A stretch of DNA of 35,353 nt. It comes from Clostridiaceae bacterium (GTDB lineage: Bacteria > Bacillota > Clostridia > Saccharofermentanales > Saccharofermentanaceae). The translations under genes were made by a program, and so were the position numbers. Positions 5,093-35,353 of the stretch are shown here, in pieces. The stretch covers positions 1-35,353 of the forward strand of contig JAAYIQ010000062.1 of NCBI GenBank assembly GCA_012523365.1, in the 5' to 3' direction. Position 1 is the stretch's first letter. Each line of letters starts with the position of its first letter. The notes beneath the pieces are model-generated. The model made no database searches. It saw only the letters and a list, made by a program, of their open reading frames with translations, and was not told where the DNA came from.

Positions 5093-5182
5093 ATGTAAGT
5101 CCCTCCAAATAACTGTTGTTTCGTCATATATACAGGCGTATCCGCCGACATATCTTCTCTCTTGTTCTTATCGTTAACTTGC

Positions 5183-21567: not shown

Positions 21568-22068
21568 ATGAGAGAATCAAGCATCAGCGAGAAATTTATG
21601 CGGCAGGCTCTGACCCAGGCGAAGAAAGCCCAAAACATCGGTGATTGTCCGATCGGTTGTGTTGTGGTCCGCGACGGCAGAATCATCGCCAGAGCCTATA
21701 ATTTACGGGAACACAAACAGGACGCGACCTTGCACGCGGAGATGATTGCCATACAAAAGGCCTGTAAGAAAATCGGCTCCTGGCGTCTCGAAGACTGCGA
21801 TTTATATGTGACGCTCGAGCCTTGCTCCATGTGTGCGGGAGCCATTATTCAGGCGCGCGTGAGACATGTGTATTTCGGAGCGCCCGACCCGAAAGCCGGG
21901 GCGGTAATGTCTAAGGACAAGCTTTTCGAGCGGGCACATAACCATCGAGTCAACTTTACCGCGGGAATACTGAAGGAAGAGTGCGGCGATATACTGAGCG
22001 GCTTTTTCCGCGACCTCAGAACGCATAAAAAGTCCGGTCCGGAATCAACCAAATCATCTTCTCTTTGA
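21568..22068 (+). CDS. tadA: tRNA-specific adenosine deaminase
   Basis: Deaminates A34 of tRNA-Arg(ACG) to inosine; essential for decoding CGN codons. Zinc-dependent cytidine-deaminase fold with HAE (His57, catalytic Glu59) and PCSMCAGA (Cys86, Cys89), plus GAPDPKAGA and a typical C-terminal HRVNFTAGILKEECGDILSGFFR. 166 residues, with about 15 extra polar residues at the end. That tail overlaps the end of addA on the other strand by 53 bp. The ATG lacks a ribosome binding site and sits directly at a predicted transcription start. Deaminases on other substrates are possible in the superfamily, but the motif spacing is that of TadA. Confidence 0.95.
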   Translation: MRESSISEKFMRQALTQAKKAQNIGDCPIGCVVVRDGRIIARAYNLREHKQDATLHAEMIAIQKACKKIGSWRLEDCDLYVTLEPCSMCAGAIIQARVRHVYFGAPDPKAGAVMSKDKLFERAHNHRVNFTAGILKEECGDILSGFFRDLRTHKKSGPESTKSSSL

Positions 22069-25000
22069 CTTTCAGACGGCTGGCCGCTTCAATGGCGCGG
22101 GCGTAATAGTCGAGCTGAACGGTATACCGATCTTTGAGGATCCTCTCCTTTTCATTCTGATCGCCGCGAATCCTGTCCGATTTGTAATCGATCAGAACGG
22201 CTCTCCCGTTCTCGATGAACCAGCAGTCGATCATTCCCTGAATCAGACGAAAATCGTCCGGCGATACCGGTTCCGTAATCGAAAACGGTATTTCACGGAA
22301 CGGGCCGTGACCCGGGGTTCGTTCGGCTTTGCACATCCTCGCGCAGATGTCCGAGGATGAAAAGGCAAGGATGTCCGCTATATACGGCTCAAGATACGGC
22401 ACCTGTCCGGGACGGATCATGCCATGCGCGGCCAACCGCGCCAACTCCGCCCGCACGCTCTCCGCTGTGGCATGCCCGGGCAAAGCAGAAAAATCCAGGT
22501 ACTGAAAAACGCTGTGAAGGAGAACGCCCGCTTCGGTCGGAGACAGTGCGCGCTCCGTCGTCCGCTTCGTTAATCCGGTGCGAACCACAAGATTAACCGG
22601 TCTTTTTCCGGGTATTCCGTCGATCCCGGCCGGCACCTTTTCTTCCTCTCCCTCTTCGGGAGGAGGTGTTCTGCGCTTCAATTCCGACACCGTCACCTTC
22701 GCCGGCATACGAATTAAATCCTCGCGGGAATATGCGTTGCCTGATTGCTTTTCGAAAAGCAATCGTTCGGAGTCGCTCAGATCCTCGATATTGACTTCCT
22801 GACGATCCTCGTCCCGCCCGCGCGGAGGGGTCGTATTCCCGACGTTCACGAGGTCTGCTCCGGAGAGCTCCTTCTCAAGAATATTCCGCTCGATGATCTG
22901 AACGGTCAAGTCCTTGGTCCTTCGAAGCACGACTCCCGCTTCGCTTAATGATGCAACGTCACTTCCTTCCGATATTAACGATTCTGCGGGCATCAGGGGG
23001 TTCCTGCCTAACCCGAGAAGCAGGAAATCCAGAAAACTCCCGGCGCGCAGAACCATATTCGGGGGGAGTTTCTCATCGGGAACCGGACGCGAGGCTGTCA
23101 CAAAGTCCTCATGCCGCGATATGCCTCCTTCTTTTTTTCTCGTAAAACTGCCGACCAGATAAAGCCTTTCCTCGGCGCGGGTCACAGCGACATATAGGAG
23201 GCGAAGATACTCGGAAAGTGCTGCGCGCCGCTCCCGCTCGGTCAGAAATATCTTCGGGAGGGTCGGATATTTATAGCCCTTTTCGAGTTCAATAAAATCA
23301 GAAGCGATTCCGTGAATATCATTCATTATGACGGATCCGGTATCGACGCGGAGCGGAAACGAGCCGGAAATCCCGCATACGAATACAACCTTATATTCAA
23401 GACCTTTGCTTTTATGGATGCTGTTACAACGGACCGCATTACGGATCTGCTCTCCGATTTCATAATCCTCGGGGCGCTGGTCTCCCCTTCGGATTTCGTC
23501 GATATAGCGGACAAAAGAATAAAGTCCGCCCCTTCTGCCGCTTTCAAAAGCATTCGCCCACTCGCGGAAGGTCTCCAGTGCCTCCACGCGCGAAGGCCCG
23601 TTCCGGTCGCCGATCAACCGATTCAAAATGCCAGTGGAAAGGTATATTCTTTCGATCAGCTCCGAAACCTTAAGGAACATCGATTGGGTGCGCAACGAGC
23701 CGATAAAATCGAGAAAACGATTGATTTTTCCGGCAAGCGGCTCCGGACCCTCAGCCGCATACAGTGCGACCTTCTCATGGTAGAAATCCTTAGCACGGCC
23801 CTTTTCCCTCGCGAAAAGATAAATCCGCAAGAACTCTTCGGGGGTGAATCCGGCATCCGGAAAATCGGCCCTCATAACCGAGCAGAGCGGGATGTCCTGC
23901 CTCATGTTGTCAATCAGCAGAATCAGGTTATTCATGAGCAGAAGCTCTCTGTCGGCGAAAAGCGCGGCTCCGGAGGGTCCCTGAGCCGGAACGCCCAATT
24001 CGGACAATAACTCCGATATTTCCGCCGCTTCGCGATTCGTCCGGCATAGTACCGCGAAGTCCCCGTATTCGCACCCGTACCGGGTGATCAGCCCGCGAAT
24101 CGTCCGATACACATACAGCCCTTCATAGCGAATCGCTTCGATGTCGATCGCTCCCTCACCGGTGAGCTCCGAAGCACCCGTGTCTGCGGACGGGTCCTCC
24201 GACTGAGCAGGGTCGGTGTTTTCGGGACGACCGGACTCGTCGACCCGACCGGATTTGTCCGTTTCTGATCGGTCTTCCGACGCTCCACCATCGGTTCCCC
24301 GCGATTCTCCGACCGGACGGGACCGATCAATCAAGACCATCTGTACGGCTTCTTCGGGGTGATCGTCGAACGCATTTTCGAGCCGCATCGGCTCAAGACG
24401 CTGAGACGCGTCGTATTCGATTTCGGCGGATAAACGCGACATCAGTTGCGAGAAAATATCGTTTGCGAAATTCAATATCTCGGCACGGCTTCGGAAATTA
24501 CCGTTCAATTCCAGAAGCGTACCTCCCGAGCCTTCGCGATAGCGGTCGCCTCTTGATGTAAACATGTCCGGTCGCGCGTGGCGGAATCGGTATATACTCT
24601 GTTTGACGTCGCCGACATAAAAAGCGTTCCCGTTCGCGATCCGTTCGATAATCGCGTCCTGAATCCGGCTGTTATCCTGATATTCGTCAATGTAAATCTC
24701 CGTGAAAAGCTCCCGGTAATGTGCGGACACCTCCGGTCTCTTCAAAAGCCGTAACGCCAGCTGTTCCTGGTCGGAATAATCCAGCGCACTTTCGGTGCGC
24801 TTTCGTTCGGAATACCAGCGGTCCGTGAGCTCCACCGTCTCGAAAAGCCGCGCCAGAAGCGGGAGCATGATCGAGAGATCCTTGCTGATCTCTTCGGCGT
24901 TTCTCCTGAAAACACCCGGTTCAAGACCTTTGAATCGGGACACGTACTCCCGGTTGATCGGATAGATCCCGGTCAGAATGTACATTTGCACAAAAAACGG

Positions 25001-26077
25001 CTCCAGAACGGAATAAAAACGATTCTTAAGATCATCGGAGTCCGCTCTCCCGGGCCCTCCCGGCCATTTTCCGATCGGTACGCGCATCGCGATCTCATGG
25101 ATGTCATTCCAAGAGCAATCTTCTTTCATTTTCTCGAAAAGCTCCGCGGACGCCGCAAATGCTCCCCGGTAACAAGCGACATATTCATCGTTTTTTTTCT
25201 TCACGCCGGTGAAGGCAAAAGAGCCGAGAATCCGATCGGCTTCCGAGACCGCATCGGCGGCGCGACGCGATATTTCCCCGAGCTCCTCAATGTATGCCGC
25301 CGCAACCGGCGATCGGGAAAAATCTGCGGCTTCGCGCTCTTTTTGCCGGATCATCTCGCGAATGCGCTCTTGGTAATCCGGAAGGCTTCGCAGTGCCGAA
25401 TGAAAGGACAGGATCATCTCCCGGAGCATGCGATCGCTTCGTCCGTCGCCGAAACACATCGACATATTCATGAAAGACGCGCACCATGATCGGGTAGTCG
25501 GGCAGTCATTTGTAAGCGAGAATGGCAAAGGCTCCGAAAGAACATCCGGCAGTTCGGCGGGAACGAGGGTCTCCGCGTCGGGATCACCGACCAGCAGAAT
25601 CCGGTGGCAAAGAGCATAGAGCCCGTCCAGAACACGATCAACCGATTCCTCCAGAAGGATCTTGGAACGGGTACCGTCCATGATCGAGGCGCCGGGTTCA
25701 ACAAACACCTTTCCCGCATCATCGGTCGATTCCGACCCGAAGTTCTTGATTACATCGTTACAAAAAGAGTGGATGGTCGAAATATGCGAAAGCGGAAGCA
25801 TGGAGATCTGCTCCGAAATCCGGAGCGCCTCGCCGGAGCTTCCCGCGCGTCTTTGCGCCTCCAGAAGAGCCGTTTCCAGACGGTTGCTCATATGTGTTGC
25901 CGCCGCTCGGGTAAACGTCATCACCAAAACATTCTCAACATTCAGTTTGCCTTCGACGATCCGCTCGGCGATACGCTCGACCAAAACCCGTGTTTTGCCG
26001 GATCCGGCGGCAGCGCTGACCAAGAGGTTTCCGAGTTCGGCGTTCACGACGCTTCGTTGTTGCTCCGTCAGACTCAT
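22016..26077 (-). CDS. addA: ATP-dependent helicase/nuclease subunit A
   Basis: 3'-5' helicase and nuclease of AddAB, which processes double-strand breaks to Chi-like sites for recombination. The UvrD-type helicase starts with the Walker A SAAAGSGKT (21-29), Walker B-like DEYQD near 462, and late motifs HKSKGLEYKVVFV and LYVAVTRAEERL; the C-terminal RecB-type nuclease has VLIDYKSD near 1295-1301. 1353 residues, longer than the about 1230 usual; part of the excess is an acidic Ser/Asp/Glu/Gly-rich insert near residues 589-642 that looks disordered. The start codon overlaps the addB stop (ATGA). Confidence 0.95.
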   Translation of the reverse strand: MSLTEQQRSVVNAELGNLLVSAAAGSGKTRVLVERIAERIVEGKLNVENVLVMTFTRAAATHMSNRLETALLEAQRRAGSSGEALRISEQISMLPLSHISTIHSFCNDVIKNFGSESTDDAGKVFVEPGASIMDGTRSKILLEESVDRVLDGLYALCHRILLVGDPDAETLVPAELPDVLSEPLPFSLTNDCPTTRSWCASFMNMSMCFGDGRSDRMLREMILSFHSALRSLPDYQERIREMIRQKEREAADFSRSPVAAAYIEELGEISRRAADAVSEADRILGSFAFTGVKKKNDEYVACYRGAFAASAELFEKMKEDCSWNDIHEIAMRVPIGKWPGGPGRADSDDLKNRFYSVLEPFFVQMYILTGIYPINREYVSRFKGLEPGVFRRNAEEISKDLSIMLPLLARLFETVELTDRWYSERKRTESALDYSDQEQLALRLLKRPEVSAHYRELFTEIYIDEYQDNSRIQDAIIERIANGNAFYVGDVKQSIYRFRHARPDMFTSRGDRYREGSGGTLLELNGNFRSRAEILNFANDIFSQLMSRLSAEIEYDASQRLEPMRLENAFDDHPEEAVQMVLIDRSRPVGESRGTDGGASEDRSETDKSGRVDESGRPENTDPAQSEDPSADTGASELTGEGAIDIEAIRYEGLYVYRTIRGLITRYGCEYGDFAVLCRTNREAAEISELLSELGVPAQGPSGAALFADRELLLMNNLILLIDNMRQDIPLCSVMRADFPDAGFTPEEFLRIYLFAREKGRAKDFYHEKVALYAAEGPEPLAGKINRFLDFIGSLRTQSMFLKVSELIERIYLSTGILNRLIGDRNGPSRVEALETFREWANAFESGRRGGLYSFVRYIDEIRRGDQRPEDYEIGEQIRNAVRCNSIHKSKGLEYKVVFVCGISGSFPLRVDTGSVIMNDIHGIASDFIELEKGYKYPTLPKIFLTERERRAALSEYLRLLYVAVTRAEERLYLVGSFTRKKEGGISRHEDFVTASRPVPDEKLPPNMVLRAGSFLDFLLLGLGRNPLMPAESLISEGSDVASLSEAGVVLRRTKDLTVQIIERNILEKELSGADLVNVGNTTPPRGRDEDRQEVNIEDLSDSERLLFEKQSGNAYSREDLIRMPAKVTVSELKRRTPPPEEGEEEKVPAGIDGIPGKRPVNLVVRTGLTKRTTERALSPTEAGVLLHSVFQYLDFSALPGHATAESVRAELARLAAHGMIRPGQVPYLEPYIADILAFSSSDICARMCKAERTPGHGPFREIPFSITEPVSPDDFRLIQGMIDCWFIENGRAVLIDYKSDRIRGDQNEKERILKDRYTVQLDYYARAIEAASRLKVKEKMIWLIPDRTFYAF

Positions 26078-29000
26078 TTCGTCAAATCTCCCGTTCCGTC
26101 CGTTTCCGCCGGCCGCTTCGTGTCGGCAGCTGTCCCCTGTCCGGGGATACGGGCAAGATCACGCCGTACGGCGGAAATATAACGTTCCCGGTCCGTCTGT
26201 TTTTTTCCGTCTCCGACGTCGATGTCGGGCAAAGGCTTCAGAAACGAAAACGGAGGCGTGACCGGGTCAATACCACAAACGGACTTATATTCGCAATATG
26301 TACAAGCGTGACTTCCGCCCGCCGGATCATAGACCGGTCGGACCGGGAAACAACCGCTGAAAATCTTCTCACAGGATTCTCGGATTCGAAGCATCGCATG
26401 TTCGGAACTGCAGATAAGATCCTCCGACGCCAACTTCATGCCCCGCTCGGAAAATTCTTTGCTTTTTCCGAGCGCCGCGCTCACCGCCGGGGCTTCACCT
26501 CCCGCGGGATCCACTCGGATGATCGGGTTACGAAGAACGAAATAACCCGCGTCGCCCGGCATCAGGTGCGGATTGGCAAACCGGTAAGCAAACAAATACG
26601 CCGGCAGTTGCACGGAAAGTCCGGAGTATATGTGGAGGAAATTTACGCGTTTATCTCCGGTTTTATAATCCAACACGCGAAAAACACCATCGGAGTTGAC
26701 GTCGACACGATCAATGATCCCTTTAAAAACAACGCTTCTTCCCTGCTCGGGCCATTCAATCGAAAACGGCGGATTCTTCTTTCCTTCGCCATATGACCAC
26801 TCGGCCTCCGCAGGAATGAACCCGCCGGCCCCGATCGCGCCGACGACTGCGCGAAGGGATTCCCGGGCAATCGCAATCATCCGCTGTCCGGACCCCATCC
26901 GGAGAGCCGGATCAAGGGAAACGTTATTTTTTTCTTCCGCGCACGCCTTTTCGAAAAGCTCCTCCGCCCAGCGCTGGTAGTCTCTGCACGAAAAGTCCTT
27001 CAGGACGGCTTCTCTCGCATCTTCACCGGAGGCTCCGCCAAGTTCTTCGATCAGTTCATCCAAGGCGATTTCCATGATCTTGTGCGTCACGGAACCGGTC
27101 TCCCGCGCGTCAACCTCGAATCGCTCGCGCTCCGCAAGACCAAGAATATATGAAGCAAAGTATTGAAACGGACAGGACACATATTTCTCGATCTGCGACA
27201 CGCTCATTTTCGAGCGCGAGCCGAGAAGCTCCGACATCAGTTTGCCGGGCAGAACGATCTCGAACGGATCTCCCGGGCGATCCCGGTCGCAGGCAAACTC
27301 AGGGTGCATACGAAGGAGGGCCAAGGCCTTATGTCGCTCTGCCGGATCCTCGTTTGCGGCATCCGGGGAACAGAGATGTGCCGCATGACGAAGCAGTGCG
27401 TTCGCCGAAAAAAGTCGCGGGTCGTGGAGGCTTTTCGGCGGATTATCGAGGAGCAACGCGTTCGGCAAACATTCTGCGATCAACCGAAAAACCAGCGACG
27501 GCTCCTTCGACAAGAGCCCCGAAACGAAGAACTTCTCGGATGGGCAATCCAAAATCGCGTATGCGGTAAAAAAATCCGCGTATGCGCCGTCCTTGGCGCG
27601 GTTCGGAAAACGGACGCGAAGAGATTTCCCGAGCAACTCTCGCTCATACCCGCGCAGAAAGCCCTCGGAAAGCGCGGTGTTCGGAAAATATTCCCGTTGG
27701 GCGCCGACCAAAAACAGGACCTTGCAATCCCTCTGAAATCCGTGGGCGACATCGGTTATCCGCACCTGATCGACAAATGCGGGTATCGCACCCGCGGAAG
27801 CGGCTTCGGCCGCGAAAACAAGCGCGTCGCGAAAATTAAGAAGCGATATTTTCATGTCTCCGAGCGGTCCGGCAAGTCGGTCAAGTGTTTTCGTCAGCTC
27901 ATTCCACGAGGCGACCAACGCAAGCGCTGCGTCGTGATCACCGGCCTCTACCCACTCACCGGCCAGGAGTTCGATCTGGCCGCCGTTTCCGCTGTCCGCA
28001 TCCGCTCCGACATACTCGATAAGAAAAGCGGAAAGAAGCCCGGCTTTTCGATCACAGCGGGGCTCGGCCGAAAGACCGCGCACCGCTTCGCGTAACGGAA
28101 GAAGCACTCGCTCGACCTCGCGAAAGACCTCCGGACCCTCCGTGTCCTTCCCGGTCGCGTAGTTTTTTTCATCGAAAATCCGGAACCCCTTAAAAAGCCC
28201 GTGCCGCAAGAAGTAATTTTCCAGTTTGTCCGATTGTTCCCGGGAGATATGACAAATTCCCGATTTCAAACATCGCATCAAACTGTCGTATGACCATCCG
28301 TTCACGCCCAAATCCAGAAGTGCGGTGACAAAGCGCATCAGCGCAGTATCGGAAAGTTTTCTTCTTTTATCGAGAAACGGATCCATGCCGAACTCCGAAA
28401 AAACGGCATGCAGATTGGACCGATAACTTTCGGGATCACAAAGGACAACCGTTATGTCCTTATATCGATAATCGTGAAGCAAAACCAACTCGCGGATTTT
28501 GCCGGCAATGTACGACAGCTCCTCGGTCGTCGACGCGAAAAGCATGCTTGTAACTCCTTCCGCGGATCCGGCAAAAGGTTTACGCTCGCGGCGCAGGAAG
28601 GATCTCGACAAATGCCTGATCTCGGGCACGGTTTCAGCTCCCGTCCCGACCCCGATGATCTCGGCTCCCGGGATCGCTTCCTTCAACAGCCGGATCGTCT
28701 GTCCGCCGAAATAAAAGCCGTCGGCGCAATTCTCGCAGGCACCGGAGTCCGAGAACCGGTTCGCGGTCTCCCGATCGGCGCATACCGATACGGTCACCTT
28801 GGCGCACAAGCTCGAGAGTCTCCGGATCAGTTCCGTCTCTTCCGGTGTGAAATTTCGTGTTTGGCCGAAGCCGTTGATCCAGATTGATGCCTCGGACAAG
28901 TATTCGAGTCGATTCAAAGGCCATGGCAAGGGTCCGTTATTACGGGCTTTGCGGACTTCGTCGACTACCGAGCAAAGTTTTGGGAGCGGGCGGGCCCGCT

Positions 29001-29562
29001 CGCAACAATCGAGCCGCTCGGTCAGCTCGTCCAAGCGTTTCATCAGGAGGCCCAACTCACGCATTTTTCTGGCGAAAAGCGGTCGGCTCGCCTCTTCGTC
29101 TATGTTTTCGAGCATCTCCGGAGTAATATCGTAACGGTAGAAATCTTCAAGCACATTTTGAATACGGGATGCGAAGCCGAATCTCTGTGAAATCGGTGAA
29201 AGCACCGAAAAATCATCCTTACCCTCATTCAGGACGCGATGAATCAAAAGACTCTGCATTGCCGCGTCGGGAAGATCATGCGCGGTTCCGCCGATCTCGG
29301 CGAGCACTCTGTGGGCGAAACGATGGAAACTCAACACGTCGACGATCATCAACGCTTCGTCGATTCCGCCTCCGGATTCAGGGCTCCGGCTCAACTTCTG
29401 CCGGATCTCAAGATAACGCCGCTCCATGTCGGCCTTTGTCTGCTCAGGTACAATGAGAAACGCCCGTTTATTCGGCCACAAAAGCGCTTCGTTGCAAATT
29501 TCCTCCATGCAGGCATCGGTTAAATCGCCCGCACGTTCTCCGTGCAGAATTCGAAACGCCAA
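26074..29562 (-). CDS. addB: ATP-dependent helicase/nuclease subunit B
   Basis: Partner of AddA with an inactivated helicase-like fold, a nuclease domain and an iron-sulfur cluster. The C-terminal nuclease has VLDYKTGD near 964; cluster cysteines are visible in YVSCPFQYF (near 799) and CTYCEYKSVC (near 1084). The N-terminus FRILHGERAGDLTD corresponds to the AddB P-loop (usually GRAGSGKT), but Lys and the Gly-Ser pattern are gone, so ATP binding by this subunit is probably lost. 1162 residues, normal. TTG start with GAGGAGG 9 nt upstream, 14 nt after the acyl-CoA synthetase gene. Confidence 0.93.
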   Translation of the reverse strand: MAFRILHGERAGDLTDACMEEICNEALLWPNKRAFLIVPEQTKADMERRYLEIRQKLSRSPESGGGIDEALMIVDVLSFHRFAHRVLAEIGGTAHDLPDAAMQSLLIHRVLNEGKDDFSVLSPISQRFGFASRIQNVLEDFYRYDITPEMLENIDEEASRPLFARKMRELGLLMKRLDELTERLDCCERARPLPKLCSVVDEVRKARNNGPLPWPLNRLEYLSEASIWINGFGQTRNFTPEETELIRRLSSLCAKVTVSVCADRETANRFSDSGACENCADGFYFGGQTIRLLKEAIPGAEIIGVGTGAETVPEIRHLSRSFLRRERKPFAGSAEGVTSMLFASTTEELSYIAGKIRELVLLHDYRYKDITVVLCDPESYRSNLHAVFSEFGMDPFLDKRRKLSDTALMRFVTALLDLGVNGWSYDSLMRCLKSGICHISREQSDKLENYFLRHGLFKGFRIFDEKNYATGKDTEGPEVFREVERVLLPLREAVRGLSAEPRCDRKAGLLSAFLIEYVGADADSGNGGQIELLAGEWVEAGDHDAALALVASWNELTKTLDRLAGPLGDMKISLLNFRDALVFAAEAASAGAIPAFVDQVRITDVAHGFQRDCKVLFLVGAQREYFPNTALSEGFLRGYERELLGKSLRVRFPNRAKDGAYADFFTAYAILDCPSEKFFVSGLLSKEPSLVFRLIAECLPNALLLDNPPKSLHDPRLFSANALLRHAAHLCSPDAANEDPAERHKALALLRMHPEFACDRDRPGDPFEIVLPGKLMSELLGSRSKMSVSQIEKYVSCPFQYFASYILGLAERERFEVDARETGSVTHKIMEIALDELIEELGGASGEDAREAVLKDFSCRDYQRWAEELFEKACAEEKNNVSLDPALRMGSGQRMIAIARESLRAVVGAIGAGGFIPAEAEWSYGEGKKNPPFSIEWPEQGRSVVFKGIIDRVDVNSDGVFRVLDYKTGDKRVNFLHIYSGLSVQLPAYLFAYRFANPHLMPGDAGYFVLRNPIIRVDPAGGEAPAVSAALGKSKEFSERGMKLASEDLICSSEHAMLRIRESCEKIFSGCFPVRPVYDPAGGSHACTYCEYKSVCGIDPVTPPFSFLKPLPDIDVGDGKKQTDRERYISAVRRDLARIPGQGTAADTKRPAETDGTGDLTK

Positions 29563-29576
29563 GACCGCGCACCTCC

Positions 29577-31409
29577 TCAGAGGGTATCCAGATTCTGGCC
29601 GTTCGCGGATTTCATCGTCGCGCCCGCCTTCTCCAGTATAGCATGAACGGCATCGAGTTCCTGTTTTCTTTTTACCTTCAGCGTAGTCGTCTTGACCATT
29701 TCACCTTCCGAGAAAACGAAGTAACGAATCGCCTTAAAAGAAGGCATCTGATGGTTGATCTCCCGGATATGATCGTGAAAATAATCATAAATAGCGTTAT
29801 CGCCCGGATTTTTATCCGGAACGGGCAGGTGTTTTCCGATCTCCTGACGGTCGATCAAAATTTTGGCGCAGATCTCAATGGATTCACGATCCGAAGTCTC
29901 CCCCCAGACGAACGATTCACGAACGCCCGGAATGATATTAATCAGAGATTCGATCTCCTCCGGAAAAGCCTTTTTTCCGTTCGTCAGTACGATCATCGAT
30001 TTCACGCGTCCGGTGATATGCAGGCATCCCTTCTTGTCCAGATAGCCCATGTCTCCCGTTCGAAACCATCCGTCCTCGGTCATCACCTCGGAGGTCGCCG
30101 CCGGATTCTCGTAGTATCCGAGCATCACGCATTCACTTCTGCTCAAGATTTCACCGACCGCTCCCGGCTTCGTGTCTTCGGTATCGATTCCGACCTGAAC
30201 ATCGGTGACCGGCCGACCGACACTCCCGTAAACATTGCATTCCTGTGTAGTTACGCTGATGACCGGCGCGGTTTCCGTCAGGCCGTATCCCATCAGAAAA
30301 TCCAGTCCGAAATCACTGAAATCACGAATGTATCTTTTATCGATTCCGGCGCCGCCGATGACGACCAGGCGAAGATGCCCGCCAAACTTTTTGAGGATGT
30401 CCTTAAAAATGATTCTGCGAAGATCAATGCCGATTTTGCGTAAAAATCGCGTCAGCGGAATCATCACGGATATCAAACTTTCTTTTCCGGATTCCGTGAT
30501 TCCGGCCATGATCTTCGAGTGTACGTTTTCAAACAAAAGCGGCACCGAAATCACGACCTCGATATGCCACTCCTGAAAATTCTTGACGAGATATCGAAGA
30601 CCGTCCGAAAAACAAATCACACAGCCGCGTGAGAGGAGGAAATAATCACAGGTGTTCTCAAAAGTATGATGGAGGGGCAATATCGAAAAGGCGCGCTCAC
30701 CGGTCTCCACATAAAGAGTTGAGGATATGTAATAGACATTCCGGCAAATATTCTTGTGCGAAAGCATGACGCCCTTGCTCATTGAGGTCGTTCCCGAGGT
30801 GAAAAGGATAATCCTCATCGCATCCGGGTCGATCGGTGTGTCCAGGAAACGTCGGTCTCCGGCTTCTTTTTGTTTTTTCCCGATCTCGAGAAGATCGATG
30901 AAATCCAGAAACCTTTTGTCCTCGGGCCATTTGTCGGCGACCGGTTCTTTCTCCATGCAGATAAAATAATTAACGCCCGGATCCGTTTCGCCGCTTTTAC
31001 CTGCCACCGAAATCATCATGTCATGATGCTTCGGGTGATAAAAAACCGCTTTCACCTTGCCGCGCTTCAGAAGATTGACAACCTCTGTTTCGGGAAGAAG
31101 ACGGTCTAGGGGAACACCGACACTGCCGCCTCCGACAATGGCCGAATAGGAAACCATCCATTCGTAGGAATTCTCTCCGACTACCGAAAGATGACTGCCG
31201 GTAAGCCCAAGTTCGGATAATGCGAGCGCGATGTGTTCGACATCGGCTCCGAAATCGTCGTATGTCTTATGAATTTCCGCTTGCTCCGGTTTTCTTCTGA
31301 AAATAAAGGCATCCTTGCCGGCGTACTTTTCTCTGATATCGAGAACCAAGTCCCGCAGCGTCTCATATTTTGCCCCTTCGCGAAGAGCCTTCCCGGTTAC
31401 CGTCTGCAT
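29577..31409 (-). CDS. Long-chain acyl-CoA synthetase (AMP-forming)
   Basis: ANL-superfamily enzyme activating a carboxylic acid, most likely a fatty acid, through an acyl-AMP. The P-loop-like FTSGTTSMSKGVMLSHKN, the YGLTETAPV motif, the GWFRTGDMG motif and the C-terminal hinge and lysine region (GRVKSMIVLTNGKKAFPEEIE; TTTLKVKRKQE) are all present. No signal peptide. The ATG at 31407-31409 is chosen because GGAGGGAGAAGG precedes it; another ATG 11 codons upstream has no site. 610 residues. Placed head-to-head with a plsC-like gene and upstream of addB/addA. It could instead load an acyl carrier protein, since one is encoded nearby. Confidence 0.9.
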   Translation of the reverse strand: MQTVTGKALREGAKYETLRDLVLDIREKYAGKDAFIFRRKPEQAEIHKTYDDFGADVEHIALALSELGLTGSHLSVVGENSYEWMVSYSAIVGGGSVGVPLDRLLPETEVVNLLKRGKVKAVFYHPKHHDMMISVAGKSGETDPGVNYFICMEKEPVADKWPEDKRFLDFIDLLEIGKKQKEAGDRRFLDTPIDPDAMRIILFTSGTTSMSKGVMLSHKNICRNVYYISSTLYVETGERAFSILPLHHTFENTCDYFLLSRGCVICFSDGLRYLVKNFQEWHIEVVISVPLLFENVHSKIMAGITESGKESLISVMIPLTRFLRKIGIDLRRIIFKDILKKFGGHLRLVVIGGAGIDKRYIRDFSDFGLDFLMGYGLTETAPVISVTTQECNVYGSVGRPVTDVQVGIDTEDTKPGAVGEILSRSECVMLGYYENPAATSEVMTEDGWFRTGDMGYLDKKGCLHITGRVKSMIVLTNGKKAFPEEIESLINIIPGVRESFVWGETSDRESIEICAKILIDRQEIGKHLPVPDKNPGDNAIYDYFHDHIREINHQMPSFKAIRYFVFSEGEMVKTTTLKVKRKQELDAVHAILEKAGATMKSANGQNLDTL

Positions 31410-31539
31410 TCCTTCTCCCTCCAAAAACAGCCTTATGTTCATTACTGTACGGATTCCGTCGATGAGTCGTCGGTGTTTTTGATTATTTTCGATAATAACA
31501 TGGAATCGGGAGAGCGTCTACGGGAAACACCGAATTTAT

Positions 31540-31567
31540 TTTGACTTTCAAACCATTTGGATCAAAT
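31540..31567. promoter_or_regulatory. Two TTTG/CAAA palindromes, candidate FabT/MarR operators
   Basis: TTTGA-CTT-TCAAA (31540-31552) and ATTTG-GAT-CAAAT (31555-31567) are perfect inverted repeats with centres 15 bp apart, ending 3 bp before the -35 of the plsC-like gene. They resemble the TTTGA..TCAAA palindromes known for FabT, the MarR-type regulator of fatty-acid genes; a MarR protein is encoded about 2 kb away. Confidence 0.5.
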
Positions 31568-31569
31568 CA

Positions 31570-31598
31570 TTGACATAAAGGGATTCGTGGAATAGCAT
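31570..31598 (+). promoter_or_regulatory. Sigma-70 type promoter of the plsC-like gene
   Basis: Perfect TTGACA (31570-31575), 17-nt spacer, TAGCAT (31593-31598). Leader of about 60 nt to the GTG start. The adjacent palindromes suggest repression or activation from just upstream. Confidence 0.65.
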
Positions 31599-31666
31599 GG
31601 GTAAAAAGAAACGCCGCTTTTTCGAGTTTAAGCAACTCAACGACCCACAAAGGAGCACGACGCAAA

Positions 31667-32422
31667 GTGAGCCCTTCCTCAGACTCCGGATCCATTAAAG
31701 CCTTGCCGTCTTCCGCCGGCAAGGACAGTCATTATCCCGTACGCCGCGGGTTTGTCGGCCATTTCTTTTTCGGACTTGGCGTAACAGCCTCCTATCTCCT
31801 GCTGCGTTTCAGGAGTTCGGGGCGAAAGAACATCCCGAAGGAGATACCATATGTCATCGCCGCCAACCATCAAACCTTTGTCGACGGAATGTGGATCGCC
31901 CGTTTTCTTCCCCGCAGGCATTTCGCGAAAATGTGCTGTCTGGCAGGCTCCGATCTCGAGACGAGTTACGGACTCCTGGGCCGGCTGATCATGCGCGTCG
32001 GGCGCGGGATCGCCGTCGATCGTTACGGAAGCCCGGTACGCGGTTTGATCAAAGCAAAGAAAGAAGTTGAGAACGGAAATATTATGCTGGTTCATCCGGA
32101 AGGAACGAGAACCCACGACGGAATGGTTGCGGAATTCAAGGACGGAGCCGCTTATATGGCGGTCAAGGCCGGCGTTCCGCTTCTCCCGGTGTACATAGAA
32201 GGCGGGTACGAAGTATTATCGAGACACATGAAACGCCCTCAGACCTGGGATCGCGTGAACAAACGGCGCAAAGCCGTCACCGTTCATTACGGCGAACCGC
32301 TGCTGCCCGAACAGTTCGGGGGAAATCCCAAGAAAATGACCGCGGCACTCCAGGAGTGGATGACTCAGATGGAGAAGAAAGCGAACGGTAATGCGTCCGG
32401 AATGACCTCGAAGCGGACCTGA
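31667..32422 (+). CDS. 1-acyl-sn-glycerol-3-phosphate acyltransferase (PlsC family)
   Basis: Adds the second acyl chain to lysophosphatidic acid, making phosphatidic acid for phospholipids. Motif I NHQTFVD (His-x4-Asp), motif II-like GRGIAVDRYG, motif III VHPEGTRTHDG and motif IV VPLLPVYIEGG are present. One hydrophobic segment near the N-terminus (about 29-46) would hold it at the membrane. GTG start with AAAGGAG about 12 nt upstream; 251 residues. Its last 58 bp overlap the end of the convergent diacylglycerol-kinase gene. The acyl donor could be acyl-ACP or acyl-CoA. Confidence 0.92.
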   Translation: MSPSSDSGSIKALPSSAGKDSHYPVRRGFVGHFFFGLGVTASYLLLRFRSSGRKNIPKEIPYVIAANHQTFVDGMWIARFLPRRHFAKMCCLAGSDLETSYGLLGRLIMRVGRGIAVDRYGSPVRGLIKAKKEVENGNIMLVHPEGTRTHDGMVAEFKDGAAYMAVKAGVPLLPVYIEGGYEVLSRHMKRPQTWDRVNKRRKAVTVHYGEPLLPEQFGGNPKKMTAALQEWMTQMEKKANGNASGMTSKRT

Positions 32423-33336
32423 TGCGCATAGAAGTCCTCCCCGTCGTAATTCCCGTGAATTTGTGAATGCCTCTCCGTTGAAGAGATGACACCGCTCGTT
32501 ACCGTGAAAAAATGGCACTTCGGATGCCCAAGGTGCTGTCCTTTTTTATATTTTCCGATGAGAGGAATGGCCTTGTGCCTTGACAGGTCTTCCACCAGGC
32601 AAACCTCCAGGATTCCGTCATCCGTATTCGAATGCGGAGAGGGGTTGAAACCGCCGCCGTAGTAACGGCCGTTGCATATACAAGCTAAGGAATAATCCAT
32701 TTGACCCTGTGCGCTTCCCTTGCCCGACGCAAGCTCAAGCGAGTAGTTCATCTTAAATTTCCAGCCTTTGATAAAGCACTTCAGTATCGCGATCGTATAT
32801 GCGTGCTTCCGGACAAATCCGTTACGATTGGTCTTGCGGATATATTCCTTCGCCTGAGCATTCACCATCGTATCGAGTCCGAACGATGTGATGTTCACGC
32901 TGTATCGACTCTTCTCGGGCAAAAAATTGGAAGTTTCGTCATAACAGTCGACACGGATCAAATCCAGCGGACGAACCTCGTGGTTCTCAATAAACGCGAT
33001 CAACTTAGCGGGCTCGTGATAATACTGTTCCGGGAGGATCGTACGCGCGAAATCGTTCCCGGTTCCCATCGGAAGAACCGCCATCGGAGTCTGTCCGAAT
33101 GCCAGCGCGTTCGCGACCTCATGAACCGTTCCGTCTCCTCCGCACGCGAAAACAATCGCGTCGGATCCAAATTTCCCCGCTGCTTCTGCCGCAAGTTCGC
33201 CGGCGTGACCGGGATATTCGGTGCGATGAATCTCAACTTTTGTGCCTTTACGAGCCTCAAAATCACGAATCGCAAGTTCCAACTCCGCTGCCTTTTTTCG
33301 TTCCGCAAAATAGTTCAGCAGAAAAACATAATTCAT
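32365..33336 (-). CDS. Diacylglycerol/lipid kinase family protein (DagK/YegS-like)
   Basis: Phosphorylates a lipid, probably diacylglycerol recycled to phosphatidic acid. The ATP-binding signature FACGGDGTVHEVANAL and MGTGNDFAR are clear, followed by the beta-sandwich domain with NITSFGLDTMVN, CNGRYYGGGFNPSP and a C-terminal NYDGE, near the usual IDGE. 323 residues, normal. GAGGTG precedes the ATG. It starts 18 bp after the acyl carrier protein gene, so MarR regulator, ACP and kinase form one unit. Another lipid substrate, such as a sphingoid or isoprenoid alcohol, is possible in this family. Confidence 0.9.
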   Translation of the reverse strand: MNYVFLLNYFAERKKAAELELAIRDFEARKGTKVEIHRTEYPGHAGELAAEAAGKFGSDAIVFACGGDGTVHEVANALAFGQTPMAVLPMGTGNDFARTILPEQYYHEPAKLIAFIENHEVRPLDLIRVDCYDETSNFLPEKSRYSVNITSFGLDTMVNAQAKEYIRKTNRNGFVRKHAYTIAILKCFIKGWKFKMNYSLELASGKGSAQGQMDYSLACICNGRYYGGGFNPSPHSNTDDGILEVCLVEDLSRHKAIPLIGKYKKGQHLGHPKCHFFTVTSGVISSTERHSQIHGNYDGEDFYAHQVRFEVIPDALPFAFFSI

Positions 33337-33354
33337 CGGGCACCTCGCTTGTAA

Positions 33355-33690
33355 TTATTCTGATGTCATACCGTAGATCAAATCGACCACATCCTGAACC
33401 GTGTTGACGCGCTCAAGCTCGTCGTCGGATATTCGGATTTCAAACCGGCTCTCCAAATCAATCACAAGCTCATATACCTGAAGCGAATCCAGTCCCAAAT
33501 CATGTACGATTTCGGTTTCGGGCTTAATGTCCGTCGGGGAAAGATCGTCCATCTCGGTCACCAGGTCAATCAAGGTGTCGTATATCCGTTCTTTCCTTCG
33601 CATCACGGGATCATCGAGCCCGATTCGTTCTCGGGGGTCGCCCGTACTGTCCGGCTCGCCTCGCTGTAAGTCACTGGATAAATCGGTCAT
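33355..33690 (-). CDS. Acyl carrier protein with N-terminal extension
   Basis: Carries acyl chains on 4'-phosphopantetheine bound to the Ser of LGLDSLQVYELV; the second half has the usual acidic helices EIRISDDELERVNTVQDVVDLI. The ACP core is about 77 residues, preceded by about 33 extra residues that are charged and probably disordered. I chose the ATG at 33688-33690 (GGAGG 10 nt upstream); a GTG two codons earlier would overlap the MarR stop as GTGA. The extension and lack of adjacent fab genes suggest a specialised rather than the main AcpP, possibly linked to the acyl-CoA synthetase and plsC nearby. Confidence 0.9.
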   Translation of the reverse strand: MTDLSSDLQRGEPDSTGDPRERIGLDDPVMRRKERIYDTLIDLVTEMDDLSPTDIKPETEIVHDLGLDSLQVYELVIDLESRFEIRISDDELERVNTVQDVVDLIYGMTSE

Positions 33691-33692
33691 TT

Positions 33693-34190
33693 TCACTGGT
33701 CCTCCGTTTGTTTTGCCGCTATTCGGGCATTTTCTTCCTGGCTGTATTTCTCGTATTGTTCTTTGATGAAGCTGTCGATCTCGCGTACGAGAGCGGCCAG
33801 TCTTTCCCGGTCATCGGGTGCCAGAGGATCCATGATCCTCCGGACAAGAAGTTTGTGAAACTTCGCGTGCATTCGGTACGCCAACTTTCCTTGGCGGGTC
33901 AGACAGATGCGAACCACGCGACGGTCTTTACTGTCGCGGTAACGTTCAACGTAACCCTTGCGCACCAATCGATCAATCGCCACAGTCAGCGTCCCGGTCG
34001 TTATACCGAGCCGTGAGGCCGTCTCGCTCATCGCGCGTGCTTCGTAAGGACCGATGGCTTCCAAGGTGTGTAGTTCCGCGATGGAAAGATTGGAAAAATA
34101 ACCCTTGGAAAGTGCTTTCTCCTCCGTCAAGAGAACATTGTCGAAAATCCTTAAGAGTCCCTCCGCAAAATCATTCTCGGCTGAATACAA
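33693..34190 (-). CDS. MarR-family regulator, possibly FabT-like
   Basis: Winged helix-turn-helix dimer of the MarR family: recognition part TASRLGITTGTLTVAIDRLVRKGYVERYRDSKDRRVVRICLTRQG is preceded by an N-terminal dimerisation helix and followed by a long C-terminal helix. 165 residues. TTG start with AAAGGAGG about 8 nt upstream. It is the first gene of a unit with an acyl carrier protein and a lipid kinase, the same kind of company as FabT, which represses fatty-acid genes with acyl-ACP as co-repressor. FabT-like palindromes occur before the plsC-like gene. The FabT assignment is inference; the family is certain. Confidence 0.88.
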   Translation of the reverse strand: MYSAENDFAEGLLRIFDNVLLTEEKALSKGYFSNLSIAELHTLEAIGPYEARAMSETASRLGITTGTLTVAIDRLVRKGYVERYRDSKDRRVVRICLTRQGKLAYRMHAKFHKLLVRRIMDPLAPDDRERLAALVREIDSFIKEQYEKYSQEENARIAAKQTEDQ

Positions 34191-34287
34191 AACGCGGTCC
34201 TCCTTTGGGGATAATCCATGCGGCTTTGGCGCACACTCTTATATCTTATCTTTTTTATTCGCAAAAAACAATCCGATCCGATAACGC

Positions 34288-35353
34288 TCAGCTGCCTCCG
34301 CCCTTTCGGCGCTTTTCGATGCGAAGAAAGCCGCGCATCAAACGGATGACCGAACGGGATATCGGGCGCTCGAAGGTTCTGCGGACCAGTTTCAATTCCT
34401 TGCGAATTTCGATGCTCTGCGGGCAATGCGATTCACAGCGCCCGCATTCCGTGCACATCGACGCGAATCCGGGACGCACCGAAAAAACGCCAAGCGTCCG
34501 GTAATAATTAAAAAAACCGCCCGACCCGTTCACGAGATACTTCTCGTTATAGATCGAAAAGCACCCCGGAATATCGACACCGAACGGGCATGGCATACAA
34601 TAACCGCATGCCGTGCAAGGGATCCTGGTTTGGGCCGCCATATCCGCCTTTACCCGCTCGAAAACCGCAAGGTCGGCGTCGGTCAAGCTGTTCGGCAACG
34701 CGTCGGATGCGGTTTTAATGTTCTCGAATAATTGCGCTTCCGTGCTCATCCCGGACAGCACTACGGTAACCTCCCCGTGATTCCATACCCATCGGAGTGC
34801 CCACTCCGCCATCGACCGTCCCGGATTCGTCTCGCGAAAAGCGCGAGTGATCGAATCGGGCAACTGATCCGAAAGCATCCCGCCGCGGATCGGCTCCATG
34901 ACGATCACCGGGATGCCCATTTTCGCGGCCAGCAACAACCCTTCCTTGCCGGCCTGATGATTCTCGTCCATATAGTTATACTGAATCTGACAAAAATCCC
35001 ACGGATACGCCTCCAGAATCTTTCGAAAGCTGTCATGACTGCCGTGAAAGGAAAAACCGATGTTCCGAATCGTTCCGGCGCTTTTCAGTTCTTCCATCCA
35101 TTGAAGCACGCCGATCTCAACCATCCGATCGAAACTGTTGATGTCGGTCAGCATGTGAAGGAGGTAATAGTCGATATAGTCCGTCTTCAACCGCTTCAAT
35201 TCCGTCGCGAACATGCTCTGTGCGCCGGACAACTTCTGTACCATATAAGCCGGAAGTTTCGTCGCGATATATACGCGTTCCCGGTAACCGCCCGCGAGCG
35301 CTTTGCCCAGGAGAACTTCGTTTTGCCCACCGTTATAAATATACGCAGTGTCA
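34288..35353 (-). CDS. Aldo/keto reductase with C-terminal ferredoxin domain (partial)
   Basis: The coding frame stays open to the window end, so the N-terminus (about 30-60 residues) is missing; the first visible residues read DTAYIYNGGQNE with the catalytic Tyr, then ATKLPAYM with the Lys and LLHML with the His of the AKR tetrad. After the TIM barrel come two iron-sulfur sites, CTACGYCMPCP and CTECGRCESHCP. Such AKR-ferredoxin proteins are common in anaerobes and may take electrons from ferredoxin rather than only NADPH; the substrate is unknown. A 97-bp gap with no clear terminator separates it from the MarR gene. Confidence 0.9.
   Translation of the reverse strand, partial: DTAYIYNGGQNEVLLGKALAGGYRERVYIATKLPAYMVQKLSGAQSMFATELKRLKTDYIDYYLLHMLTDINSFDRMVEIGVLQWMEELKSAGTIRNIGFSFHGSHDSFRKILEAYPWDFCQIQYNYMDENHQAGKEGLLLAAKMGIPVIVMEPIRGGMLSDQLPDSITRAFRETNPGRSMAEWALRWVWNHGEVTVVLSGMSTEAQLFENIKTASDALPNSLTDADLAVFERVKADMAAQTRIPCTACGYCMPCPFGVDIPGCFSIYNEKYLVNGSGGFFNYYRTLGVFSVRPGFASMCTECGRCESHCPQSIEIRKELKLVRRTFERPISRSVIRLMRGFLRIEKRRKGGGS

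Follow-up and report, generated by a model that had tools for sequence, protein, structure and literature searches.

A predicted FabT-type operator between plsC and a divergent acyl-CoA/acyl-ACP synthetase gene in an uncultured group of Clostridia

The gap between a plsC-type acyltransferase gene and a divergently oriented acyl-CoA/acyl-ACP synthetase gene (ACS) of a Clostridiaceae bacterium contains a palindrome that, judging by its conservation in related genomes, is very likely a real FabT-type operator. Taken together, the results make it probable that this operator serves the FabT-like regulator encoded nearby, with acyl-ACP as a co-factor, and mediates feedback on ACS, possibly also on plsC, with further copies of the same site at fabH/fabD, acpP and hppA. 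The motif, its conservation, the neighbouring genes and their order were computed directly from the genomes. The stretch of DNA analysed here, referred to as the window, comprises 35,353 nucleotides and lies on contig C183 of an assembly of 2,007,987 bp in 198 contigs (94.67% complete), whose nearest relatives are clostridial MAGs, some of them labelled Saccharofermentans or Mageeibacillus.

Results

The plsC/ACS gap and its palindromes

The features of the window are collected in Table 1. A MarR/FabT-like gene accompanied by an ACP gene and a lipid kinase gene had been proposed to lie 2 kb from the gap, and the family profiles identified all three genes as described. The best NCBIfam matches of ACS are acyl-CoA ligases, all scoring under their cut-offs. 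The plsC and lipid kinase genes overlap tail to tail by 58 bases (window 32365-32422), and their matches overlap in the relative's locus L026 too. Downstream of ACS lie addA/addB-type genes (window 22016-29562), and many of the 56 loci of relatives described below have an addB match after ACS.

Table 1. Predicted features of the plsC/ACS gap and of the surrounding genes in the window.
Feature	Position	Strand	Remarks
FabT-type operator (predicted, very likely) TTTGACTTTCAAA, arms TTTGA/TCAAA, spacer CTT	31540..31552		exact site; recurs in relatives
Extended operator, consensus of relatives about AAATNNTTTGANNNTCAAANNATTT	31534..31558		per-column counts over 44 distinct exact sites (acpP and ACS)
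Second palindrome ATTTGGATCAAAT, arms ATTTG/CAAAT, spacer GAT	31555..31567		no conserved operator
plsC promoter-like site TTGACA-N17-TAGCAT	31570..31598	+	score 10/12
ACS promoter-like site TAGACG-N17-TATTAT	31492..31520	-	score 9/12
ACS, acyl-CoA/acyl-ACP synthetase	29577..31442	-	AMP-binding PF00501; main predicted target
plsC-type acyltransferase	31667..32422	+	PF01553; possible co-target
YegS-type lipid (diacylglycerol) kinase	32365..33336	-	PF00781 and PF19279
Second acyl carrier protein	33355..33696	-	PF00550; start overlaps the fabT stop
FabT-like MarR regulator	33693..34190	-	NF050133, 140.7 bits; 6jbx, E 3e-27

The original prediction described two perfect palindromes, both candidate FabT-type operators, directly upstream of a TTGACA-N17-TAGCAT promoter of plsC. 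The promoter-like site was indeed found, and it shares the top score with one other of the 10 promoter-like hits in positions 29000-35353, where shuffled sequences give 5.3. Both palindromes are present with perfect 5-base arms, their 3-base spacers being non-palindromic, and the first of them holds up as a FabT-type site: the core TTTGANNNTCAAA occurs in 25 of 31 distinct plsC/ACS gaps (window included), whereas ATTTGNNNCAAAT, the core of the second, occurs in the window alone. The second palindrome, whose arms stand 2 bases closer than those of the FabT box and whose ATTT coincides with the 3′ flank of the first site, was thus rejected as an operator. The window departs from the extended consensus at some flank positions. 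When up to 2 mismatches were allowed, degenerate sites showed no excess in the window (17 found vs. 21.5 expected).

The regulator and the ACP encoded behind it

Against the NCBIfam FabT profile (NF050133) the regulator scores 140.6-140.7 bits, the next family reaching 39.2. It stays below the curated cut-off of 200 bits, which may be too strict to decide membership, because it is reached in none of 14 control genomes, Lactococcus lactis among them. The protein is a winged-helix member of the MarR family (PF01047, 45.3 bits, cut-off 24.6), and its closest solved structure is 6jbx (E 3e-27), annotated as a transcriptional regulator of fatty acid biosynthesis, which we take to be pneumococcal FabT. 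The fabT gene lies outside the fab operon and is followed by the acp and lipid kinase genes; fabH is located on another contig with no fabT beside it. The ACP encoded behind fabT is 37% identical over 71 aa to the other ACP of the genome (acpP), and hence distinct from it. No site with one mismatch or less was found in the 200 bases upstream of fabT in the window, where the best match has 2 mismatches, and autoregulation of this fabT is not claimed. No operator of its own was found for the lipid kinase gene.

Recurrence of the site in relatives

With the FabT of the window alone as a query against genome contigs, 73 loci were obtained, of which the 56 clostridial ones (L026-L081) were analysed; L082-L098 were left out of the gap and site counts. 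The common order in these 56 loci is fabT-acp-kinase with a convergent plsC, and 30 of them also have a divergent ACS. The results showed that the site recurs in the plsC/ACS gaps: 24 of the 30 contain it exactly, 2 with one mismatch (L058 and L078) and 4 with two or more (L043 with 2, L073 with 3, L034 and L035 with 4), as compared to 0/30 at one mismatch or less for the control. Upstream of fabT, the site is exact in 10/54 loci and has one mismatch in another 5/54 (15/54 in total; control 0). Altogether, the 598,345 bp of the 56 loci hold 40 exact sites (control 0), which are distributed between the plsC/ACS gaps (24), fabT (10), ACS alone (1), plsC alone (2) and the interior of ORFs elsewhere (3).

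An ACP gene is found within 400 bp behind fabT in 54/54 loci with enough sequence (2 of the 56 being left out). In 11/56 loci (L061-L064, L071, L073, L074, L076, L078, L079, L081), a homologue of ACS with 38-44% identity follows acp within the fabT cluster.

ACS is the better-supported target

The plsC promoter had been predicted to be the controlled one, with the divergent synthetase as a further possibility. The relatives point to the reverse order, the site tracking the ACS promoter. On the ACS side, 27/27 distinct sites (window included) have a T[A/G]GAC hexamer at 15-19 bp from the operator, followed after 17 bases by a TATNAT-like hexamer, the −35 box being sought 8-30 bp from the operator. 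A promoter for plsC (TTGAC with TA..AT) could be recognised in 21/25 exact-site gaps, window included, at distances of 17-84 bp. Moreover, an exact site is present upstream of plsC in 24/30 loci with a divergent ACS vs. 2/17 loci without it (Fisher test, p = 8e-6, a value that is too small because related genomes are treated as independent). One of the two exceptions, L044, is cut off by the contig end; the other, L052, has an exact site without a divergent ACS. In L042, where ACS lies apart from plsC, the site stays with ACS. Given the narrow range of spacing to the ACS promoter, the general lack of the site at plsC genes standing alone, and the L042 arrangement, ACS appears to be the better-supported target, and plsC may at most be co-regulated; as the main target, plsC was rejected.

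Sites at fab genes, acpP and hppA

The original prediction had expected the motif to be enriched near lipid genes. In agreement with this, the own genome contains 7 exact copies of TTTGANNNTCAAA vs. 1 for the reversed control, and 98 sites vs. 40 at one mismatch or less. Four of the seven exact copies lie outside genes, namely before fabH/fabD, before acpP-rnc (directly behind pgsA), before hppA, which encodes a membrane pyrophosphatase, and in the plsC/ACS gap. In the fabD-fabH gap, the exact site is followed by a second one (1 mismatch) starting 16 bp on; the start of fabH was set here from homology, and a longer frame would include the site. The products of fabH, fabK, fabZ, acpP, rnc, pgsA and hppA each clear an NCBIfam cut-off, and that of fabD has fabD as its best family at 249.2 bits, just under the cut-off of 260.9. 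The notion of a small regulon for phosphatidic acid is thus right in that lipid genes carry the motif, but the set is wider and includes fabH/fabD, acpP and hppA.

The other three exact copies, on contigs C76, C166 and C176, each overlap an ORF and were dropped as targets. The ORF on C76 has no match to a Pfam family; the site on C166 falls in the last part of a Band_7 gene, a short way before the likely start of a nicotinate phosphoribosyltransferase gene, and because of this position it may be a target. A site with one mismatch on contig C88 was discarded as being far from the ACS paralogue encoded there.

Furthermore, 58 genomes of the family were searched with own-genome proteins as queries, and for each query the best 30 loci were examined. 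Matches to fabH were obtained in 56/58 genomes, and all 29 usable loci among the best 30 (L126 was omitted for too little upstream DNA) have a site with one mismatch or less, exact in 11 (control 1/29). By eye, a −10-like box immediately precedes the fabH site, and a second site frequently follows at 16 bp. For acpP, the best 30 loci yielded 27 exact sites and 2 with one mismatch (control 0), and 20 further genomes, 19 of them from genus g2, yielded 11 at one mismatch or less (control 1), with L225 and L234 away from the promoter. For ACS, 27 of the best 30 loci have an exact site (control 0 at one mismatch or less); among 20 further genomes, all of genus g2, a site with one mismatch or less is present in 4 (control 0), so that in g2 the ACS site is mostly missing.

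Matches to hppA were found in 27/58 genomes. Among the best 30 rows, which represent 29 places (L134 and L158 are the same gene), 17 have a site with one mismatch or less, 6 of them exact (control 0). The site is present at the two close hppA genes of the own genus (L129, L130) and common in g2; at hppA of g3 and g5 (L131-L133) it is missing, the best matches having 2 or 3 mismatches. In g2, the hppA box supplies, by eye, a TTGNCA that could be a −35 element. In the own genome, the hppA box lies on contig C131 at 5159-5171 (L015), upstream of the pyrophosphatase gene.

Spacing between the site and the promoters

At acpP, where the −35 box is TTGACA, the operator ends 28-30 bp before it in 28/28 distinct sites (two one-mismatch sites included), −35 boxes being sought at 20-40 bp; at ACS, the site ends 15-19 bp before the −35. 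In g2, the acpP site was seen by eye 8 bp (7/8) or 10 bp (1/8) before the same type of promoter, i.e., about two helical turns nearer. The sites at ACS, acpP and plsC are all upstream of the −35, so simple occlusion of the promoter is not obvious; the spacings at acpP and ACS differ from one another by close to multiples of a helical turn, and contact with RNA polymerase is therefore possible. Repression and activation both fit the geometry at ACS and acpP. The fabH site, as well as the fabT site where present, lies by eye near the expected transcription start, in a repressor position, and repression seems likely in both cases.

Acyl supply

No FakA match was found in the own genome, and a profile search gave no PlsX match either, in an assembly that is 94.67% complete. 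In the family, PlsX was matched in 5/38 genomes (2 strongly, 1 over the cut-off) and PlsY in 1/38, under the cut-off; each of the two profiles is over its cut-off in 8/14 control genomes, B. subtilis and L. lactis included, and a diverged PlsX or PlsY enzyme could be missed by such searches. The own genome encodes two PF01553 proteins, plsC and one on contig C188. Since FakA and PlsX lack matches, a path for free fatty acids through ACS is plausible.

Discussion

The arrangement described here looks like a variant of the known FabT regulon, with a site that is very likely of the FabT type. The FabT box has been published as ANTTTGATTATCAAATT (PMC10138225) and ANTTTGACTGTNAAATT (PMC8406281). 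According to PMC13046290, repression by FabT is weak, acyl-ACP improves its binding, and its gene is the first of the fab operon. As in the FabT regulon of Streptococcus, Enterococcus and Lactococcus, we have here a regulator of the MarR family, the core TTTGANNNTCAAA and fab genes as predicted targets. A gene for activation of exogenous fatty acids has been proposed as a FabT target there as well, fakB4 in S. pyogenes (PMC10138225), and here ACS carries the site. The differences are that fabT of the window heads a fabT-acp-kinase cluster instead of the fab operon, that ACS and hppA carry the site, and that FakA and PlsX were not found by the searches described above.

The ACP encoded behind fabT resembles AcpB of E. 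faecalis in being a second, divergent ACP and a possible ligand carrier, with no site of one mismatch or less upstream of fabT-acp in the window. AcpB has been suggested as the source of the ligand when cells grow on exogenous fatty acids, and acpB is apparently cotranscribed with plsX (PMC6509188); a putative FabT site in the E. faecalis acpB promoter was tested by gel shift (PMC9083066), and acpB has been placed outside the FabT regulon (PMC13046290). The present ACP differs in being encoded behind fabT and not with plsX, for which there is no match in the own genome.

From this arrangement we infer binding, an acyl-ACP ligand, use of ACP by ACS and a sign of regulation along the following lines. 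The regulator would bind the operator in the plsC/ACS gap, and by analogy with FabT of Lactobacillales it would bind DNA better when holding long-chain acyl-ACP, the ACP encoded behind fabT being the likely carrier of the acyl signal. Since acpP has a site and the window fabT has none with one mismatch or less in its 200 upstream bases, the supply of the second ACP could continue when acpP is controlled, a logic that has been proposed for Enterococcus AcpB. ACS would join free fatty acids to ACP or CoA, the products serving as acyl donors for phospholipids and perhaps as the FabT ligand, and the operator would feed back on ACS and perhaps on plsC; the other copies of the site would control fabH/fabD, acpP and hppA.

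The assignment of the site to ACS bears directly on the proposal that two operators at the plsC promoter, together with the lipid kinase, form a small phosphatidic-acid regulon. In the window, the first site does stop 17 bp short of the plsC −35, a spacing of 17-19 bp is seen in 6/21 gaps with a plsC promoter (window included), and in L052 an exact site precedes a plsC copy that has no divergent ACS. Yet the plsC promoter stands at varying distances from the site (17-84 bp), as against 15-19 bp for the ACS promoter, the exact site is found in 24/30 cases with a divergent ACS vs. 2/17 without (L044 among the latter at a contig end), the site stays with ACS in L042, and the second palindrome is not conserved, which leaves this proposal improbable. 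It is even harder to credit that another regulator binds the motif and that the neighbouring MarR gene is a mere bystander: three other FabT-profile matches do exist in the genome, but they are weaker, at most 33.9 bits vs. 140.6 for the window gene, while the core motif equals the published FabT box and fabT itself has an exact site in 10/54 relatives.

As to the sign of regulation, FabT might act in two ways, repressing fabH from a site near the start and activating ACS and acpP from sites upstream that share one helical face. The narrow ranges of distance to the −35 at acpP (28-30 bp, 28/28) and ACS (15-19 bp, 27/27), as well as the displacement of the g2 acpP site by two helical turns (to 8 or 10 bp), are consistent with such a dual role. 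On the other hand, the promoters seem good enough to work unaided (TTGACA at acpP, a TATCAT-type −10 at ACS), the spacing at ACS covers a 5-bp range, repression too can come from phased contact, and among the titles searched no paper on FabT as an activator was found. A dual role is in our opinion rather unlikely, and we are similarly doubtful of its fuller version, in which a dual FabT with a co-encoded sensor ACP would activate the acyl-ACP synthetase and acpP in the absence of a FakA/PlsX/PlsY route. We keep to feedback by the FabT-like regulator on ACS, and perhaps plsC, as the preferred reading.

A search of titles and opening abstract lines for FabT with plsC, Clostridia, acyl-ACP synthetase, pyrophosphatase or Saccharofermentans lipids revealed no paper title describing this arrangement. 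In rumen butyrivibrios, the presence of FabT could not be verified in 2015 (PMC4478896). If the preferred reading is true, FabT control would extend to an uncultured group of Clostridia that includes many MAGs labelled as coming from the rumen. The regulator would be tied there to an ACP encoded with it and to an acyl synthetase of the AMP-forming type, and not to FakAB/PlsX, and a membrane pyrophosphatase gene would stand next to the same motif.
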